IMG/VR virus record: IMGVR_UViG_3300020472_000160
Span: 1-24,450 of that record
DNA: 24,450 bases
From: a virus
Strand: one strand, 5' to 3'
Part shown: positions 4,187 through 23,557 of the stretch, piece after piece
Layout of the letters: each line of letters opens with the position of its first letter
How positions within the stretch are numbered: the first letter of the stretch is position 1
Made by a program: the position numbers and the translations under genes
The notes under the pieces: model-generated
What the model saw: the letters and a program-made list of their open reading frames with translations, nothing else
Database searches by the model: none
What the model was told of the DNA's origin: nothing

Positions 4187-4356
4187 TAAATACTAATCCC
4201 CTTTTGTTCACGTAAAATTTTCTTGTAAGGTCCATCAGGATTAAGTTCCCTGACTTCTTTCACCTCTTTTAAAAGATGATATAATCTAGCATCGCCCCCC
4301 AATGATAATGCGTTTATTATTGTTGATAAATCTTTATCGTTAATAGGTAATTCCAT
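4186..4356 (-). CDS. Small conserved-type protein between gp43 and uvsX
   Basis: The frame is open from 4401 (71 residues), but I prefer the internal ATG at 4356, which forms a TAATG overlap with the gp43 stop and follows a TCTCCT-containing region. This matches the 1-bp coupling seen at its own stop with uvsX. The 56-residue product starts MELPINDKDLSTIINAL and is helical and charged, with GGDARLYHLLKEVKEVREL and a basic C-terminus (PYKKILREQKGISI). No signal peptide or membrane segment. I do not recognise a function. Conserved position between polymerase and recombinase suggests a replication or recombination accessory, which is inference only. Confidence 0.7.
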   Translation of the reverse strand: MELPINDKDLSTIINALSLGGDARLYHLLKEVKEVRELNPDGPYKKILREQKGISI

Positions 4357-6854
4357 TAGGAGAAAAATGACTCTAGGTTTGCTGTTTTTTCCACATCCCA
4401 TTCTATAGCATTTAGAATGGCTCGAAGTGGTTCCACGAAACTTTTATCAAATTGTAGATCATAATCAATGTATTTGTCAAGACCAAGTTCGTGAGGAAAA
4501 TCTTGAATAAAGGATAGCACATTTTCTTGAATAATGTTTGGTTTCTTCAAATAAAGAAACTTAACTTTCTCTCCATTTCCTATGAGAGAATACTTATTAT
4601 CCAATTTTTTTTGCTTCACATAATGATTGAAAAGCAATGCACCACGTATATGTATAGGAGTTCCTTTTGCATAGATTGTAGAATGTGCTTTATACTTTTG
4701 TAGATTGTTTGCTGTCCGTGGAAAAGCAATATCTTCAGGTGGAAGTTTTCTAAAATTAGTTCTACATTCTTCAATATACTTCTGAACATTCTCTTCAGTA
4801 TCATTCATAATCAACTTCAAAGCATCCTTAATCATTGCCCTACAAGGTGCTGGTGTAGAGGATTTAACTGCCTCAATACCCATCATCTTTAGTTTGGGTT
4901 CTTCATATCGAACACCCTCACTATCCCATACGTTTAAGATGTATCTTTTCTTGGCAGTCCATATACCACGTTCAGCAATGTTCTCCCTCTTCATGACCAT
5001 CTTATTATCATAGGCACTTACGTACTTGGCCAACGTTTCATAAGAACTCTCAATAAAAGGTTCAAATTGAGTTTCACACACCTTATTAAGGAACGTGACA
5101 ACGCCTTCATTAGTTTTCTCTCTGCCCTTGTATACAGCGTCAACCAGAGGCCCCATATTAAGATAAATGGAATCAGTATCTGAAGCAATAACATAATCAA
5201 CCTCCTCAGTTTTTAAAATATTATTGATGTGGGCATTCATCTTGTTCTCTATCCAACGAATAGATACCTGCCCACTTAAGGTAATGGCTTCAGCGTTAGC
5301 CAGTTTGTAGTATCGAAAATACTGATTGCCAATAGCACCATAAGCACTATTAAGTTGAATCTTTCTGGCCATCTGAATATTGTTACATCTAGCAATCTCC
5401 TTTTCAAGAGTCTTTGTTTTTGTTTTTTCATACTGCTGCTTTGCGGCAAGCATCTTCTTCTTGTAGATGGTGCGGTCTTTGTAAATCTTCTCCATGAGTT
5501 CAGGAAGGAACCCACGCACATCCTTCCTATATTGTGCTCCATTCGCACAAACTGCATAATCCCCATCAATTGTTATCTCCTGCTCTTCGAGGAGTCTATC
5601 AACTGTAACGGATGGATGCCGTTGTTCACAGAGGGTTTCTGGGGAAATATTATATTGCATAATAAGGTGAGGGTACAGACTGTTGAGATCAAAACTAACA
5701 ACCCAATCATACTTTCCTGCTTTCGGTTCCTTGACATAAGCACCTGCGTATTTTGCATCCTTATCGGATCTTTCTTTTGGGGGAATAACTATATTCCTCT
5801 TCTTTAAATAATTATAGATTATCGTATCCCACATACGAACCTGATAAAATACATCAGCATAGTTTGCCTTTGCGTCATATGCCATAACTATGGCAAGTTC
5901 AATCAGTTTCATCTTGTCTTCCATACGGTCAACAAGTTCCACGTCAATGATATTATACTCTACAAACTTCTGCCAACCATTTGTGTAGAAGTCCTTAAAA
6001 GTATCAAACTCACTGTGGTCTAACTTCTTCTGACCTAGTTCTACACTGGCAATATAATCCAACCTATAAGACTCTTGTGCCTTATAAGTAAACTTCCTAT
6101 ACAAGTTAAGATAATCAAGTTGAGTAACTCCACCCAAATCGTAGATAAGTTGCCTACGACCCATGATATGAGTTTCCTTTTCAGTAACCAATCCCCAAGG
6201 TGATAACCTTTTCTTTAGTTTCTCACCCAATATTCTATCCATACGACGTGCCAAGTATGGAATATCATACAACTCAATATTCCAACCAGTTACAATCTCT
6301 GGAGTATTCTCCTCAATCATCCACCATTCAATAAAACTTGAAAGGAGAGCATACTCTGTTTTAAATGATTTGTATATCACATTGGGTTGTTTATTGTCAA
6401 AAGGGCCCAAACCCCATGTGCGAATCTGTTTAGTATTGTAATCCTGAATACTAATAAGTAATACTTCTTCAGCAGCAGATTCTACATCAGGGAATCCATT
6501 CTCTGACTTAACCTCAATATCAAGTGTAGTTATTTTTATCTGACTTATATCAAACCTAATCTCTTCTTCTGGATAGTTATCCGAAATATATTGATATATA
6601 AATCTCTCATTACCATAAATCTTAAAGTTCTCAACCTCATCATACTTTTTAATAAACTCTCTACAATCTCTTACACTACCAGGTTTAATGGGTTCAACAG
6701 ACTCACCTTCCAATGTCCTGTATTTTGTTTTCCTTTTAGATGGTACAAATAAAGTTGGATTAAATGGTTCTCTAGTTGCAAAATGTCTTCCATTATCGAC
6801 ACCACGAACTAGAAAGTTGTTTCCAACCATCTGAACATTTGTATAAAATCGCAT
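4356..6854 (-). CDS. gp43: DNA polymerase, family B (T4 gp43)
   Basis: 832 residues, a little shorter than T4 gp43 (898). The 3'-5' exonuclease motifs are ExoI with D112 and E114 (TTLDIEV), ExoII N192-D197 (WNIELYD) and ExoIII Y300-D304 (YNIID). Polymerase motif A is DLNSLYP at 389-395, motif B has K498 with NSAYGAIGN at 502-510, motif C is DTDS at 559-562, and KKRY is at 635-638. All catalytic residues are present, so both activities should be intact. The C-terminus (VEKTANLESFFS) resembles the clamp-binding tail of T4 polymerase, an inference from its terminal position and hydrophobic residues. The gene begins in a TAATG overlap with an Sm-like gene and ends in one with the next small gene. 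Confidence 0.97.
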   Translation of the reverse strand: MRFYTNVQMVGNNFLVRGVDNGRHFATREPFNPTLFVPSKRKTKYRTLEGESVEPIKPGSVRDCREFIKKYDEVENFKIYGNERFIYQYISDNYPEEEIRFDISQIKITTLDIEVKSENGFPDVESAAEEVLLISIQDYNTKQIRTWGLGPFDNKQPNVIYKSFKTEYALLSSFIEWWMIEENTPEIVTGWNIELYDIPYLARRMDRILGEKLKKRLSPWGLVTEKETHIMGRRQLIYDLGGVTQLDYLNLYRKFTYKAQESYRLDYIASVELGQKKLDHSEFDTFKDFYTNGWQKFVEYNIIDVELVDRMEDKMKLIELAIVMAYDAKANYADVFYQVRMWDTIIYNYLKKRNIVIPPKERSDKDAKYAGAYVKEPKAGKYDWVVSFDLNSLYPHLIMQYNISPETLCEQRHPSVTVDRLLEEQEITIDGDYAVCANGAQYRKDVRGFLPELMEKIYKDRTIYKKKMLAAKQQYEKTKTKTLEKEIARCNNIQMARKIQLNSAYGAIGNQYFRYYKLANAEAITLSGQVSIRWIENKMNAHINNILKTEEVDYVIASDTDSIYLNMGPLVDAVYKGREKTNEGVVTFLNKVCETQFEPFIESSYETLAKYVSAYDNKMVMKRENIAERGIWTAKKRYILNVWDSEGVRYEEPKLKMMGIEAVKSSTPAPCRAMIKDALKLIMNDTEENVQKYIEECRTNFRKLPPEDIAFPRTANNLQKYKAHSTIYAKGTPIHIRGALLFNHYVKQKKLDNKYSLIGNGEKVKFLYLKKPNIIQENVLSFIQDFPHELGLDKYIDYDLQFDKSFVEPLRAILNAIEWDVEKTANLESFFS

Positions 6855-7138
6855 TACTTTTTAATCAGTGCTTGATACTTTTCAAGAATATTCTCTGCAG
6901 GTTCTGCAAGAGTTATTATCTTATCAGAACTTATCATAAATGTAGTATCTGGTGTAAAACTTTGTAACCATGGTTGAAGAAGAACCTTACCTTCCTCAAT
7001 AGTGAGTTTTTCTTCAGTAGTTTTTAATATTACTGGATGGATTAACTTACAATCAGGTTCTCCCATTTCAGCACCAACTTCTTCAATCTCACTTACTAGG
7101 ATTTCTTTGCTATTTAAAACTATTAGTTTAATTACCAT
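6854..7138 (-). CDS. Sm-like (LSm-type) small protein, copy A
   Basis: 94 residues from ATG 7138, chosen over an upstream TTG at 7165 because it gives an 11-bp overlap with the upstream gene and aligns with its paralogue's start. The sequence alternates short beta strands (IKLIVLNSKEILVSEIEEV, then VLLQPWLQSF, then FMISSDKIITLAEP) and ends in a helix (AENILEKYQALIKK). The same order, with PW-x-x-x and the IITL-x-x-P block, occurs in the adjacent gene at 7128-7433 and in the gene at 23129-23557. I recall a solved Sm-like protein of putative cyanophage origin with this type of sequence. RNA binding as a ring is therefore plausible but not shown. The stop overlaps the gp43 start (TAATG). Confidence 0.65.
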   Translation of the reverse strand: MVIKLIVLNSKEILVSEIEEVGAEMGEPDCKLIHPVILKTTEEKLTIEEGKVLLQPWLQSFTPDTTFMISSDKIITLAEPAENILEKYQALIKK

Positions 7139-7433
7139 TTGTCTTTTCCTTATACATTTCAACAATACTATCCACTGGATCTACGATTGTAACTATCCAG
7201 TCTTTAGTTACAGGAATCTTTTCATCTTTTGCCAGTACTATCCAAGGTGATAAAGAAACTTCAAGTTCACCAGAGGACTCTCCTTGATTCTCAGCAAGAA
7301 ACGTAGGCACATTCCACTCAACAAGATGAGGTTTTTTAAATAGGTATCCACATACTTTATCATCTGATACCAGTTCTTTAGCATCAGAGATTACGTTTTC
7401 TCCTGATTTCAATAAAGCAATTTTAATTGACAT
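7128..7433 (-). CDS. Sm-like (LSm-type) small protein, copy B
   Basis: 101 residues from ATG 7433, preceded directly by AAAAAGGAC. The pattern is IKIALLKSGENVISDAKEL, a variable loop, then LEVSLSPWIVLAKDEKIPVTKDWIVTIVDPVDSIVEMY. This matches copy A strand by strand (LxSxExxxS; LxPW; DxIVTIxxPxxxIxExY), so the two are tandem paralogues. The LKSGE and TIVDP elements are what I associate with phage Sm-like proteins; a small beta-barrel nucleic-acid binder is likely. It is the first gene after the terminator/promoter at 7454-7489, so it heads the transcript carrying gp43, uvsX and gp41. Confidence 0.68.
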   Translation of the reverse strand: MSIKIALLKSGENVISDAKELVSDDKVCGYLFKKPHLVEWNVPTFLAENQGESSGELEVSLSPWIVLAKDEKIPVTKDWIVTIVDPVDSIVEMYKEKTNGN

Positions 7434-7453: not shown

Positions 7454-7482
7454 ATTATAGCAATAAAAAAGGGTTCCGTCAA
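7454..7482 (-). promoter_or_regulatory. sigma70-type promoter heading the Sm-like/gp43/uvsX/gp41 cluster
   Basis: Minus strand: TTGACG at 7482-7477, a 17-bp spacer, and TATAAT at 7459-7454 with an upstream TGC (extended -10). The -10 ends 21 bp before the ATG of the first Sm-like gene. The -35 box overlaps the loop and first stem base of a terminator hairpin. Confidence 0.8.
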
Positions 7483-7489
7483 GGAACCC
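7465..7489 (-). terminator. Rho-independent terminator after hsp20
   Basis: Minus strand: 7-bp stem GGGTTCC/GGAACCC (7489-7483 with 7477-7471), 5-base loop TTGAC, then six T's (7470-7465). It follows the hsp20 stop by 26 bp. It separates the RegA-HAD-Hsp20 transcript from the polymerase cluster. Confidence 0.85.
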
Positions 7490-7512: not shown

Positions 7513-7520
7513 TATTTATA
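7513..7520 (-). promoter_or_regulatory. Exact T4 late-promoter octamer at the end of hsp20
   Basis: Minus strand TATAAATA, a perfect match to the T4 late -10 element, overlapping the hsp20 stop codon. A transcript from here would meet the terminator at 7465-7489 within about 30 bases. It may be a chance match in AT-rich sequence. Confidence 0.25.
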
Positions 7521-9219: not shown

Positions 9220-9660
9220 TTATTGTTCTTCTTCAACCTTTTTCTTCTTACTACCTATATTATACTTGGTTTCTAAAATCCACTCACCTTTATCACGATA
9301 TGCTAATACTTTAATCTGATTAAGAGGTGCTATGTCTTGTATTTTAGTTGCATCTACGATACTAATAAGTCCCCAATCAGCAAGCAACTGAGCAATACGA
9401 TTCCTACGCTGAACGTCGTTAGCAGTAAAGTTAGCGTGTTTCCCGTCGAGGGCAAATAATTCTTTGAAGTGGACAAGGTAATACCTTCCTTGCTTATGCA
9501 GTATATGACACGATTGATATATCTTCTTTTCTTTTCTGGATGCTACTCCAATTCTTGTAAGAGTCTCTCTGACTTTTAAGAAATCATCAGGTTCGTTTAA
9601 AGTAACCTCGACCATTTGCTCAGGTGACCATTTCACCTCAGGTTCTTGAACCACACTCAT
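9220..9660 (-). CDS. regA: RegA translational repressor
   Basis: 146 residues. From residue 17 the sequence follows T4 RegA closely: MVEVTLNEPDDFLKVRETLT, RIGVASRKEKKIYQSCHIL, YYLVHFKELFALDGKHANFT, RRNRIAQLLADWGLISIV and a final KYNIGS. RegA binds AU-rich translation initiation regions of early phage mRNAs and blocks ribosome entry. T4 RegA is 122 residues; here there is a 16-residue N-terminal extension and a basic/acidic C-terminal tail (KKKKVEEEQ). The start at 9660 is chosen because it forms an ATGA overlap with the gp62 stop, but an internal ATG at 9612 corresponds to the T4 start. Position after gp62 is the same as in T4. Confidence 0.93.
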   Translation of the reverse strand: MSVVQEPEVKWSPEQMVEVTLNEPDDFLKVRETLTRIGVASRKEKKIYQSCHILHKQGRYYLVHFKELFALDGKHANFTANDVQRRNRIAQLLADWGLISIVDATKIQDIAPLNQIKVLAYRDKGEWILETKYNIGSKKKKVEEEQ

Positions 9661-10350: not shown

Positions 10351-10537
10351 TATGAATCTCTTTGTGCATCTTATCCATCTCTCTGGATTTATTCTTGATT
10401 ATGATTCTATCATTCTTATAATCAGGAACCATCTCTAGAACATCCATGTGATCCCAACATAGTTCTTCATAAAGCATATTAAGACGATCCATATCTTCAT
10501 ATAAATCATTAATGTGTTCGTGGTCTTCTAAGCTCAT
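10340..10537 (-). CDS. 65-residue acidic hypothetical protein
   Basis: Starts in an ATGA overlap with the DruA-like gene. The product is acidic and helical at first (MSLEDHEHINDLYEDMDRLN, then LYEELCWDHMDVLEMVPDY) and basic later (KNDRIIIKNKSREMDKMHKE). No membrane segment, no recognised domain. The tight coupling on both sides supports it as a gene; its role is unknown. Confidence 0.65.
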   Translation of the reverse strand: MSLEDHEHINDLYEDMDRLNMLYEELCWDHMDVLEMVPDYKNDRIIIKNKSREMDKMHKEIHNES

Positions 10538-11658
10538 CGGATAATTTGGATGTTATTGTCTTCAGTCCAGAGTTCGACTTTATCTCTGAATCTATTTTCT
10601 TGTTTAAGTTTCTCATATCTCTTGGTTGCTTTACGCTTCCACCAAGAAACAATGTTCTCTAAATGAAACTTGTCCCAGTTCTGACCTTTCCTTAATTTAT
10701 CATCTTCACCAAGTAGTACTTCACGAATGTTAGCATACCCATAATCAGAAATATAAAATCTTTTCTTTTGAGTGAGTCCGAATGCCATATCTATGACAGC
10801 ATTAAACTTCTCTAGTTTTTCAGTCTTACCATATTCCTTTAGAGAGTTTTTAGTCCAAGAAATCATTTTAGTCTGTCTCTTCATCTTCTTGGAAGATGCT
10901 TTATTATCTGTTAGAGGTTCATTACCATTCAGTTTGGTAAAGTGATCATGGAGTTTGTGAAACACGTCTGCATGGAGCAGAGGGAGGAACTTACTCTCTG
11001 TTAGACCTTTATACCTCATAAACGGTTTAAGACCGTCATACTGCGATGCTGATGTGGTAGAACCATACAAGGATGTAGTCTCAAATAAACCAATCTCCTT
11101 CTCAAACACTTCATTTAATGTTTCTCTAGCAAAATGAGAAAGACATAAAAGTGCCAGAAGTTTACCACCCAGATAATTATATCCAAAAGGTTGTGATGGA
11201 ACTATTACAAATCCCATCACGGCATGACGATTAAATATTGAAAGATTAGGTTGATGACCTAACCAAAGATTTCTCGGTTTAGAGTTAATAGTAGGAGACC
11301 CAAAACGAATAAATCCCAGTACCTGCTGAGACCTTTTCTCATAGACCATCCAACGAAGTTCTCTACCTGGTATATTACTTTCATTGTTATGTGACGAAAC
11401 TGCTTGTAGAAGGTTTACATAATGTTCTTGTGGAAGTGATTGCTGAAATCTTTTACCAATAAATTTAATATCAAACTCCATCTCTTCAGGATGGATATCC
11501 TCATTAAAAAACTCATCCTTTAATGATGTTAAAGGATTCTCTTCAGCAACTATTTCTCTCTTTACATATCGAAGATAATCTTCAATAGAGGTAAAGTTTT
11601 CAAAGTAATCAATAAATTCATCGGCAGCCCATTCGGCATCAGCCTCAGGAATAATCAT
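10534..11658 (-). CDS. DruA / DUF4338-like protein
   Basis: 374 residues from ATG 11658; a TTG at 11664 is in frame but less likely. After an acidic N-terminus (about 1-95), residues about 100-225 carry the elements I associate with DUF4338, the domain of DruA from Druantia defence systems: LRWMVYEKRSQQVLGFIRFG, RNLWLG, HAVMGFVIVP, NYLGGKLLALLCLSHFAR, GLFETTSLYGSTTSASQYDG and RYKGLTE. The C-terminal 140 residues are basic, with ISDYGYANIREVL and WWKRKATKRYEKLK, suggesting nucleic-acid contact. The biochemical activity is unknown to me. It sits in the clamp loader operon, overlapping the HTH-like gene upstream by 14 bp and coupled by ATGA to the gene downstream, which argues for a replication-linked role rather than imported defence. 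Assignment is by remembered motif only. Confidence 0.6.
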   Translation of the reverse strand: MIIPEADAEWAADEFIDYFENFTSIEDYLRYVKREIVAEENPLTSLKDEFFNEDIHPEEMEFDIKFIGKRFQQSLPQEHYVNLLQAVSSHNNESNIPGRELRWMVYEKRSQQVLGFIRFGSPTINSKPRNLWLGHQPNLSIFNRHAVMGFVIVPSQPFGYNYLGGKLLALLCLSHFARETLNEVFEKEIGLFETTSLYGSTTSASQYDGLKPFMRYKGLTESKFLPLLHADVFHKLHDHFTKLNGNEPLTDNKASSKKMKRQTKMISWTKNSLKEYGKTEKLEKFNAVIDMAFGLTQKKRFYISDYGYANIREVLLGEDDKLRKGQNWDKFHLENIVSWWKRKATKRYEKLKQENRFRDKVELWTEDNNIQIIR

Positions 11659-11839
11659 AATCAAGGGTCAATTGAATTTCATTATCAAAGTTGGTGTAAG
11701 TTGGCTCATGAAAAGCACAATACTCACTAAAGGTAATCATCATTTCCTTACGTGATAGATTACAATGTTTTGCTGCTTTTGGCAAGTTCCATTTAGCAGA
11801 AAACAACATTTCCATTGCTTCTCTAGTTTCTACTCTCAT
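11645..11839 (-). CDS. 64-residue helix-turn-helix-like protein
   Basis: Starts in an ATGA overlap with the gene upstream. Residues about 14-40 (AKWNLPKAAKHCNLSRKEMM) read as a helix-turn-helix: an Ala-Ala pair in helix 2, a Cys-Asn-Leu turn and a basic recognition helix. The rest (EYCAFHEPTYTNFDNEIQL) is acidic and aromatic. DNA binding is plausible but the domain is very small. It immediately precedes the DruA-like gene. Confidence 0.62.
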   Translation of the reverse strand: MRVETREAMEMLFSAKWNLPKAAKHCNLSRKEMMITFSEYCAFHEPTYTNFDNEIQLTLDYDYS

Positions 11840-12391: not shown

Positions 12392-12453
12392 TTTAATAAG
12401 TTAATGTAAGCAGCAATAACTAGAAGAGTTAAACATAGTTGATTATACCTCAT
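12388..12453 (-). CDS. 21-residue hydrophobic mini-protein
   Basis: A 22-codon frame with ATGA overlaps at both ends. The peptide (MRYNQLCLTLLVIAAYINLL then K) is almost wholly hydrophobic and would span a membrane once. An AAGGAAT ribosome-like site lies about 7 bases upstream. It forms a series with the next basic mini-protein and the 78-residue membrane protein. Confidence 0.5.
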   Translation of the reverse strand: MRYNQLCLTLLVIAAYINLLK

Positions 12454-12671
12454 TTTTTATTCCTTAAGGGTGGTTTGGCTGGATAATATTGGAAACCAGT
12501 AGTTTTCTCTTCTAAATCTGACATCCTAAAGGTAATCATCTTATCCCAAGGTGTATGTGAATCCATAAGAACTGCTACATCATTACCACTAATTCTTTGA
12601 ACACATCCTTCATATCCAAGATATATAGATGTCTCATTAGTAACCGTAACAGTAGAACCTGGTAGTATCAT
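12450..12671 (-). CDS. 73-residue KOW/SH3-like small protein
   Basis: ATG 12671 is chosen because it gives an ATGA overlap with the gp44 stop; a GTG at 12683 is in frame. The product is beta-rich: MILPGSTVTVTNETSIYLGY, EGCVQRISGNDVAVLMD, WDKMITFRMSDLEEKT, then a Pro-rich basic end. The order GSTVxVT, EGxVxRI, AVLxD, W-K-ITFR resembles small SH3-like barrels such as KOW domains, and I remember similar small proteins in cyanophage replication clusters. Nucleic-acid or protein binding is possible. Confidence 0.65.
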   Translation of the reverse strand: MILPGSTVTVTNETSIYLGYEGCVQRISGNDVAVLMDSHTPWDKMITFRMSDLEEKTTGFQYYPAKPPLRNKK

Positions 12672-13609
12672 TTGAACTCGCACTCCACCATTATTTCAGT
12701 TAGACATGCAAGCATGTTTATTTCTTGGTCAGCGACGAATGCCATCTGATATTGATACTTAGCAATAACAAGAACAGCAGCAGGTATAGTAGTCGGAACC
12801 AAAGATTCGTAAAGACTATCATATATCCTACGGAATAGAACAGAAGTATCGTTGTCCATATTATTGTTGACCCACTTACGTACTTCAGGAAAGTTTTTTG
12901 CTTTAAGGTTTTTAATAAGGTCATTGACGGCAACATCAGAAAAAGCAGCTAATATACCACTATCTATTTTACCACCAACTGAGTATCTCTGACACTCATT
13001 CAATACTCTTCTCCAATCTGGAAAATGTTTATTGATAAGTTGAACTAATACTTTCTTATCTGCTTCTATCTTTTCCTGTTCAAGGATTTCGTTAATACGT
13101 TGAAAGAAGGCTGCAGCAATCTGCTGTTTCTCTTTTCCCCTAATACCGAACTCAATGACGGCACAACGGGAATGGAGGGGTTCAAGGATTTTGTTCTTAT
13201 AATTGCAGGTAAATATGAACCGACAGTTTCCTGCGAATTCCTCAATAAAGGCCCTAAGTAAGAGTTGAACGTCATTTCCTGTGTTGTCTGCTTCATCAAT
13301 AATTATAACTTTATGCTTTGCTTCAGATGTAAGAGAAACGGTAGATGCAAAGTTTTTTGCATTGTTTCGTACTGTGTCAAGGAATCTTCCTTCATCAGAT
13401 CCATTGATAACATAGAAGTCTACTCCAAGTTGATTACACAATGCTTTTGCTACAGTAGTCTTTCCTACACCAGGAGGACCAGCAAGTAACATATTTGGTA
13501 TCTCACCTTTACTAAGAAAATCTTTAAAAGTTTTCTTAATATTATCTGGAAGGATACACTCTTCAATTGTTTTGGGTCTGTATTTTTCAACCCATATAAA
13601 GTCACTCAT
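12668..13609 (-). CDS. gp44: Clamp loader ATPase subunit (T4 gp44)
   Basis: 313 residues (T4 gp44 is 319). An AAA+ ATPase that, with gp62, loads the gp45 clamp at primer ends. It starts with the RFC-type WVEKYRPKTIEECILP box. Walker A is GPPGVGKT at 44-51, Walker B IIIDEAD at 102-108, sensor 1 FIFTCNYK near 131-138, and the arginine finger SRC is at 147-149 (HSRCAVIEF). The remaining helical lid and collar region is present (FPDWRRVLNECQRYS). The start is in an ATGA overlap with a small gene, and the stop in another. A promoter-like pair lies inside the preceding small gene. Confidence 0.96.
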   Translation of the reverse strand: MSDFIWVEKYRPKTIEECILPDNIKKTFKDFLSKGEIPNMLLAGPPGVGKTTVAKALCNQLGVDFYVINGSDEGRFLDTVRNNAKNFASTVSLTSEAKHKVIIIDEADNTGNDVQLLLRAFIEEFAGNCRFIFTCNYKNKILEPLHSRCAVIEFGIRGKEKQQIAAAFFQRINEILEQEKIEADKKVLVQLINKHFPDWRRVLNECQRYSVGGKIDSGILAAFSDVAVNDLIKNLKAKNFPEVRKWVNNNMDNDTSVLFRRIYDSLYESLVPTTIPAAVLVIAKYQYQMAFVADQEINMLACLTEIMVECEFK

Positions 13610-14808: not shown

Positions 14809-15360
14809 TTAAGGCATGTTATAGTCAATTTCACCACTAGTCATTTTTGGTTTACCGTAGTGCTCATCAAAATGTAAGAGTAGCATAGCATAATGTATGA
14901 CTTTCATCAAGTCTTTCTTATTCTTTCCATCTTTACTACCATAGCGACTACCATACTTGAGTATGTTTGCTTGACAGAAATCAGAAGCAAGGTCTCTTGA
15001 TGCCATCAAGTCTATCGTCTGGACATTACGGTACTCAAATTTAGTTCCTGTGTAATGTCCATTATAAGTTCCTGAAACATAATCTTCAATATCCTTGATG
15101 ATTTCAGATTCATGGTACTTGTACCGATAATCACTTTTTCTTTCAGTTTCTGGTCTAATACCAATATGAGTTGTGATTTCTTGATCAACACCAGTAATAT
15201 TCACATCACCCAAGTCAATGTGAACAGTATCATAACCTTCATAACCTGTATAAAAGTCTCCAGCACTACCAGTACCACCAGTTCCTATTTGTATACTATC
15301 TTCATTCATTTTATCTTCTCCATAAAGTTCATCATAAAGTAACGCCCAAGAGTTAGTCAT
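14809..15360 (-). CDS. DUF3310-like protein with Gly-rich N-terminus
   Basis: 183 residues from ATG 15360, or 166 from ATG 15309, which has a better site (GGAG, 8 bases upstream) and starts MNEDSIQIGTGGTGSAGD. The first half is Gly/Thr/Asp-rich. The C-terminal part (about 105-175) has the order YNGHYTGTKFEYRNVQTIDL, ASDFCQANILKYGSRYGSKD, KKDLMKVIHYAMLLLHFDEH. This resembles DUF3310 phage proteins (H-Y-x-x-G-x-E-x-I-D, then F-x-x-GN-x-x-KY-x-x-R, then DL-x-KA-x-x-YL). The family has no firmly established activity that I can cite. It has its own promoter and directly precedes gp45. Confidence 0.6.
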   Translation of the reverse strand: MTNSWALLYDELYGEDKMNEDSIQIGTGGTGSAGDFYTGYEGYDTVHIDLGDVNITGVDQEITTHIGIRPETERKSDYRYKYHESEIIKDIEDYVSGTYNGHYTGTKFEYRNVQTIDLMASRDLASDFCQANILKYGSRYGSKDGKNKKDLMKVIHYAMLLLHFDEHYGKPKMTSGEIDYNMP

Positions 15361-15371
15361 GTTTATTTTCC

Positions 15372-15400
15372 ATTATAACACTATCATATTTGTTCGTCAA
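15372..15400 (-). promoter_or_regulatory. sigma70-type promoter before the DUF3310-like gene and gp45
   Basis: Minus strand TTGACG (15400-15395), 17-bp spacer, TATAAT (15377-15372) with extended -10 TGT. The TGA in the -35 box is the stop codon of the AAA+ gene. The -10 is 11 bp before ATG 15360, so a transcript would have a leader of only a few bases unless ATG 15309 is used. Confidence 0.8.
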
Positions 15401-23128: not shown

Positions 23129-23557
23129 TTAGCTAGTTTTAGGATTAATCTTATAGATAGTTTCTAGCTTCTTACGGGCCTCTTCAACGGAAGATACGTA
23201 ACCCATTCTAGAATCAGGTACAACTGGACCTTGTGATAAAGATTGTTTAGAAGGTTTAAGTTCTATAGGTTCTCTGTTATCTTCTAGGAATCTATTATAT
23301 ATTTCAATTATTTTTTCATCTTTAGTTTCAGTTATCGTAATAATCTTATCTAGTTTTATCATATACATATCATCATCACATAATTCAATCCACTGTTTAA
23401 TCTTAACATAATGACCATTAGGATTATAAATCATCTTCATCACTATAGGATTCTGACAAATTAAAATAGGGTCATCATTATTTTCATCTGACGAAACAAG
23501 AGCCATTATCTCTTCACCAGACACTAATTTAACTATAGCATAAAATTCTTCTTCCAT
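23129..23557 (-). CDS. Sm-like (LSm-type) protein with C-terminal tail, copy C
   Basis: 142 residues, coupled to uvsW by a TGATG overlap. Residues about 1-93 follow the same plan as the two proteins next to gp43: YAIVKLVSGEEIMALVSSDE, then ILICQNPIVMKMIYNPNGHY, VKIKQWIELCDDDMYMIKLD and KIITITETKDEKIIEIYNRF. The LxSGEExxA, PxxxxM, WIxL and DKIITI landmarks match. A further 48-residue tail (Pro/Ser/Gln-rich then helical) is absent from the other two. RNA or protein binding as a ring is plausible, unproven. A 111-bp gap downstream carries the gp55 promoter. Confidence 0.65.
   Translation of the reverse strand: MEEEFYAIVKLVSGEEIMALVSSDENNDDPILICQNPIVMKMIYNPNGHYVKIKQWIELCDDDMYMIKLDKIITITETKDEKIIEIYNRFLEDNREPIELKPSKQSLSQGPVVPDSRMGYVSSVEEARKKLETIYKINPKTS

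Follow-up and report, generated by a model that had tools for sequence, protein, structure and literature searches.

Two predicted Sm-like paralogues encoded in tandem ahead of the DNA polymerase gene of T4-like cyanophages

The window, i.e. the entire 24,450-nucleotide stretch of viral DNA analysed here, is a fragment of a T4-like cyanophage in which the minus strand carries, in this order, RegA, several other genes, hsp20, the two small genes denoted B and A, gp43, a 71-aa ORF, uvsX and gp41. The closest relatives of the gp43 DNA polymerase (4356–6854, minus strand), at about 80–84% identity, come from P-SSM2, P-SSM5, S-SRM01, S-SKS1 and marine single-cell virus records. Gene B (7128–7433, minus strand) encodes a 101-aa protein of PHROG_431 and the T4-GC 176 family, and gene A (6854–7138, minus strand, ATG at 7138) encodes a 94-aa protein of PHROG_483 and the T4-GC 177 family; both proteins belong to DUF6561 and are predicted to adopt an Sm-like fold. 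These coordinates and this strand agree with the preliminary description of the locus, and the overlaps that it reported are present as well: the end of B and the start of A share 11 nt (7128–7138, minus strand), with the Shine–Dalgarno (SD)-like site of A (AAGGA) lying inside B, and the stop codon of A shares 1 nt with the start codon of gp43 (position 6854, minus strand, TAATG). The gene for the translational repressor RegA (9220–9660, minus strand) lies upstream of hsp20 in an order that is conserved in relatives and serves here as context. A third gene, C (23129–23557, minus strand), encodes a 142-aa Sm-like paralogue (PF16243 Sm_like, PHROG_471) and its first base is also the final base of the uvsW-like helicase ORF ahead of it.

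The region between hsp20 and B appears to combine the end of one transcript with the beginning of the next. The predicted intrinsic terminator of hsp20 (7471–7489, minus strand; GGGTTCC-TTGAC-GGAACCC-TTTTTT) carries in its loop the -35 box of a sigma70-type early promoter (7454–7482, minus strand; TTGACG-N17-TATAAT, 11/12 bases, extended TG), which is separated from the start codon of B by about 20 nt. A predicted promoter with at least 11 of the 12 bases is present in 43 of the 57 distinct leaders, compared with 2 of 1140 dinucleotide shuffles, and where the promoter is clear (47 leaders), the -35 box is overlapped in 42 cases by a stable hairpin followed by a T-rich tail. Across the relatives, this interleaved element (7454–7489) comes in two different hairpin designs, with the -35 box either in the loop or in the descending arm. 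Upstream of B, there is also a T4-late-type promoter motif, TATAAATA (7513–7520, minus strand; motif as in PMC2984593), of which the window has no other exact copy; the motif NATAAATA is found upstream of B in 33 of the 57 leaders, compared with 5% in shuffles. Early genes of cyanophages are thought to use the unmodified host sigma70, and middle genes paired early and late promoters (PMC2984593). The conserved terminator and promoter between hsp20 and B support the earlier proposal that the pair heads the polymerase transcript, with B opening a predicted transcript that continues through A into gp43 as the third cistron. A second predicted promoter, TTGACG-N17-TATAAT with an extended TG, lies elsewhere in the window (15372–15400, minus strand), directly upstream of a DUF3310 gene (14809–15360).

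The cistrons of this predicted transcript differ in their translation signals. An SD-like core precedes A in 81 of 83 loci but gp43 in only 8 of 83, the window being among the loci where gp43 has none, and in the aligned junctions, the gp43 start mostly lies on the stop codon of A. Because gp43 mostly has no ribosome-binding site of its own, it is probably translated by re-initiation, i.e. by coupling to A. In S-PM2d, genes 131 and 132 (T4-GC 176 and 177), which correspond to B and A, respectively, by profile match, rise together with gp43, uvsX, gp41 and mazG during phosphate-starved infection of Synechococcus, with log2 values of 1.12 and 1.04, compared with 0.63 for gp43 (PMC10976474).

The pair is highly conserved in marine T4-like genomes. 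Among the 88 loci, which comprise the window and the loci found by A or B, the two genes are adjacent in 87; both are present, side by side, in all 13 complete cyanophage genomes searched, and they overlap in all 56 distinct pairs. A single extra gene separates A from gp43 in 12 of the 56 distinct loci, so that the linkage to gp43, expected in the preliminary description and borne out by these counts, is strong without being absolute; the probable coupling to gp43 itself would not be absolute either. In seven loci (L011, L066, L069, L079, L080, L084 and L089), the insert between A and gp43 is roughly 250 codons long, and in L084, its product starts with MKVLSIDLDYIMGPSIELYN. In the sole exception among the 88 loci, L014 (2172–2651), the B frame runs into the C-terminal half of A and gp43 follows directly; this could be either a natural fusion or an assembly artefact. 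P-HM2 (L126, 3612–4423) carries a tandem of two B-type genes (PHM2_150 and PHM2_151) ahead of gp43 and hence three Sm-like genes in this cluster. PSSM2_178/179 of P-SSM2 and PHM2_152 were considered as additional tandem paralogues and discarded because they do not match the A, B or C profiles. A cellular origin of the pair was rejected as well, the GTDB genome collection having yielded only two short MAG contigs.

The relationship between A and B is beyond chance, and the two proteins are paralogues by all sequence comparisons employed. Profile–profile alignment (hhalign) gives a probability of 97.9% and an E-value of 3.2e-13 over 83 columns, direct BLASTP comparison an E-value of 1e-5 across 38 residues, and both proteins pass the gathering cut-off of Pfam DUF6561 (PF20198; 27 bits), with 102 bits for A and 32.3 bits for B. 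The shared landmarks, from which the preliminary description had concluded that the two genes are related, are real (LNSKE and LKSGE, LQPW and LSPW, DKIITLAEPAENILEKY and DWIVTIVDPVDSIVEMY) save for one I to L departure in the last pair. Both families are conserved in sequence, with 16 invariant residues in B, and in the tree, each of the families A, B, C and D forms one side of a branch. In annotated cyanophages, members of these families (DUF6561, PHROG_483, PHROG_431, T4-GC 176/177) are found in tandem before gp43; the DUF6561, PHROG_483 and PHROG_431 families are listed without function, and the Sm assignment is added by the present analysis.

This assignment comes from both profiles and predicted structures. 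Profiles of the two families (22 sequences for A, 32 for B) match PDB 3BY7, described as ‘structurally similar to Sm/LSm-like RNA-binding proteins', with E-values of 9.5e-9 for A and 2.2e-6 for B (8.7e-6 for C). The AlphaFold model of A (pLDDT 86.8) consists of six strand segments and a C-terminal helix, and the model of B has a similar layout but a low confidence (pLDDT 67.5); the fold of the 3BY7 family, a barrel of about five strands followed by a C-terminal helix, can be recognized in both, for B at this pLDDT of 67.5 only. In Foldseek searches, 3BY7 is the top PDB entry among the matches listed for A (TM up to 0.88 by target) and also for B (TM up to 0.92 by target, for the low-confidence model), followed, among the same matches, by TIP60 and then by entries containing Sm/LSm domains, with E-values of about 0.01 and TM scores of about 0.45–0.55. 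The Sm-like fold put forward in the preliminary description is thus borne out, being well supported for A and supported for B, as judged from profiles and predicted models. The two results that would have spoken against that description, folds other than the Sm barrel and a lack of profile–profile similarity between A and B, did not materialize. Neither protein matches the PF16243 Sm_like model, and A and B are therefore best viewed as sister families rather than members of PF16243; among the three proteins, only C passes this model (36.5 bits, with a cut-off of 29.4).

Comparison with known systems places the pair close to 3BY7 and far from the classical RNA-binding rings. 3BY7, a cyanophage-type Sm-like protein from ocean metagenomes (PF16243; engineered form in TIP60, 7EQ9), belongs to the same superfamily as A and B by profile and predicted fold and shares with them the small size, the barrel with a C-terminal helix and the L-x-PW and ITI-x-x-P landmarks. 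Unlike 3BY7, A and B match another Pfam model, come from two overlapping genes beside gp43 and exceed the aligned segment of 3BY7 (pI 5.7) in acidity. To the Hfq, Sm and LSm rings, A and B are similar only distantly, by structure search (E-values of about 0.01), and differ from them in the strong acidity, the C-terminal position of the helix and the lack of the Sm2 Arg/Lys-Gly motif of the uridine pocket: neither an RG nor a KG dipeptide occurs in A or B, and the last hairpins of the two models read TFMI-SSDK-IITL and KIPV-TKDW-IVTI. The N-terminal helix that precedes strand 1 in Sm, LSm and Hfq proteins is absent from both models, which start with a strand and have their sole notable helix at the C-terminus.

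The sister families C and D extend the set of Sm-like genes beyond the polymerase. C adjoins uvsW, on the downstream side, in relatives too, and is longer than A and B, with a conserved C-terminal extension; the label ‘methylamine utilization', attached to PHROG_471 and widely used for the gene that follows uvsW, conflicts with the Pfam Sm_like match. Family D is found 3' of gp44 in S-CAM8, ACG-2014d and ACG-2014f, and far from replication genes in S-RIM8. In the window, the site held by D in other cyanophages, directly 3' of gp44, is occupied by an NdhS-like gene (12450–12683, minus strand; PF11623, NAD(P)H dehydrogenase subunit S) that may be an auxiliary metabolic gene.

The Sm fold, as modelled, predicts the formation of rings. 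A hetero-ring of B and A is hinted at by the strict co-occurrence of the two genes and a modest rate correlation. The distance correlation between A and B (r=0.59) is the highest among ten gene pairs, but that between RegA and B (0.55) is too close for rate correlation to be accepted as proof of a hetero-ring. The closest solved relative has been used as a pentamer, the LSm part of the engineered TIP60 cage being pentameric (PMC10374429), compared with the hexamer or heptamer named in the preliminary description; A and B are known here from sequence and predicted models.

With respect to function, the linkage of these families to the genes for the polymerase, the clamp loader and UvsW suggests that they act in the replication machinery. 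The four families are all acidic (median pI values of 4.3–4.7, as against 8.9 for RegA from the same window), and this charge, together with the absence of the Sm2 Arg/Lys-Gly from A and B, makes a protein-scaffold role in the replisome at least as likely as RNA control. The reading that we tentatively favour, while rating it somewhat short of probable, is that B and A are acidic Sm-fold paralogues of old standing, kin of 3BY7, whose genes would come first and second in an early sigma70-type transcript running on into gp43, with gp43 translation coupled to A. They would assemble into a small Sm-type ring, probably together, that might serve as an adaptor or scaffold in the phage replication and recombination machinery, in preference to a general RNA-chaperone role of the Hfq type; family C, behind uvsW, and family D, behind gp44, would be reserved for other parts of this machinery. 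A more specific version, in which A, B, C and sometimes D constitute a dedicated set of Sm-like subunits, each made with a different replication or recombination enzyme, and A and B form an obligate hetero-ring that serves the replisome or its mRNAs, is unlikely in this full form; if true, it would amount to a hetero-oligomeric Sm ring encoded by a phage. The remote location of D in S-RIM8 counts against the scaffold role. So does the nucleic-acid binding that Das et al., the authors of the 3BY7 structure, reportedly proposed in Proteins in 2009.

The main rival, adopted in the preliminary description, is that a homo- or hetero-ring of B and A binds RNA and controls phage mRNAs in the manner of Hfq or Lsm, perhaps jointly with RegA. 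The predicted Sm fold of both proteins and the presence of the RegA gene upstream of hsp20, within the same conserved block, are compatible with such control, and Hfq is missing in most Prochlorococcus strains (PMC2518516), so that there a phage Sm protein would face no host competitor, which leaves room for such a protein but does not prove its role. The acidity of all four families, so different from the charge of RegA, and the lack of the Sm2 R/K-G in A and B argue against this possibility and make it rather unlikely. Less plausible still, and indeed improbable, is that the acidic Sm-like proteins block a nucleic-acid enzyme of the host or of the phage. The precedent is Rof (YaeO), a small Sm-like protein that acts through protein binding, by binding and inhibiting Rho (PMC11018626), and to which A and B are comparable by description. 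The acidic charge and the early sigma70-type promoter would fit such a role. Rho is neither known nor expected in cyanobacteria, and the linkage to replication genes, being universal, suggests a partner from the phage rather than from the host. That the main role is exerted in cis, with A and B as short leader cistrons that set the gp43 output by translational coupling and proteins of little importance, would accommodate the lack of an SD-like site before gp43 in 75 of 83 loci and its start, in most cases, on the A stop codon, but is very improbable given the sequence conservation of both proteins, the paralogues C and D elsewhere and the retention of A and B even where a gene intervenes before gp43. 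Finally, a bacterial PH-like rather than Sm-like barrel, prompted by a weak, below-cut-off Pfam bPH_9 match to A (E=0.016) and by the C5 rings that bacterial PH domains also form (PMC2817789), is scarcely credible and was rejected on structure search, in which 3BY7 and then Sm/LSm-containing entries lead among the 50 matches listed, the 3BY7 profile matches being far stronger as well.

Knowledge of Sm-like proteins in cyanophages dates back to 2008, when 3BY7 was released, DUF6561 already exists, and one recent phage record labels C ‘Sm-like' and A and B DUF6561. As far as could be checked, three observations are new: the connection between DUF6561 and the Sm superfamily, the overlapping B–A tandem with its interleaved terminator and promoter in every cyanophage genome checked, and the set of paralogues beside replication genes. 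Each of the complete cyanomyovirus genomes checked has A and B, which head the predicted polymerase transcript and are mostly recorded as hypothetical, and their placement in the Sm superfamily provides testable functions for conserved genes of abundant ocean viruses. It also raises the question of why phages whose hosts often have no Hfq keep three or four Sm-like proteins beside the genes for the polymerase, the clamp loader and UvsW.

Elsewhere on the minus strand of the window (10534–11664), a gene encodes a protein of 376 aa that has a Pfam match of DruA type (PF14236); in S-SCSM2R, a gene labelled ‘mom' lies immediately before gp62.
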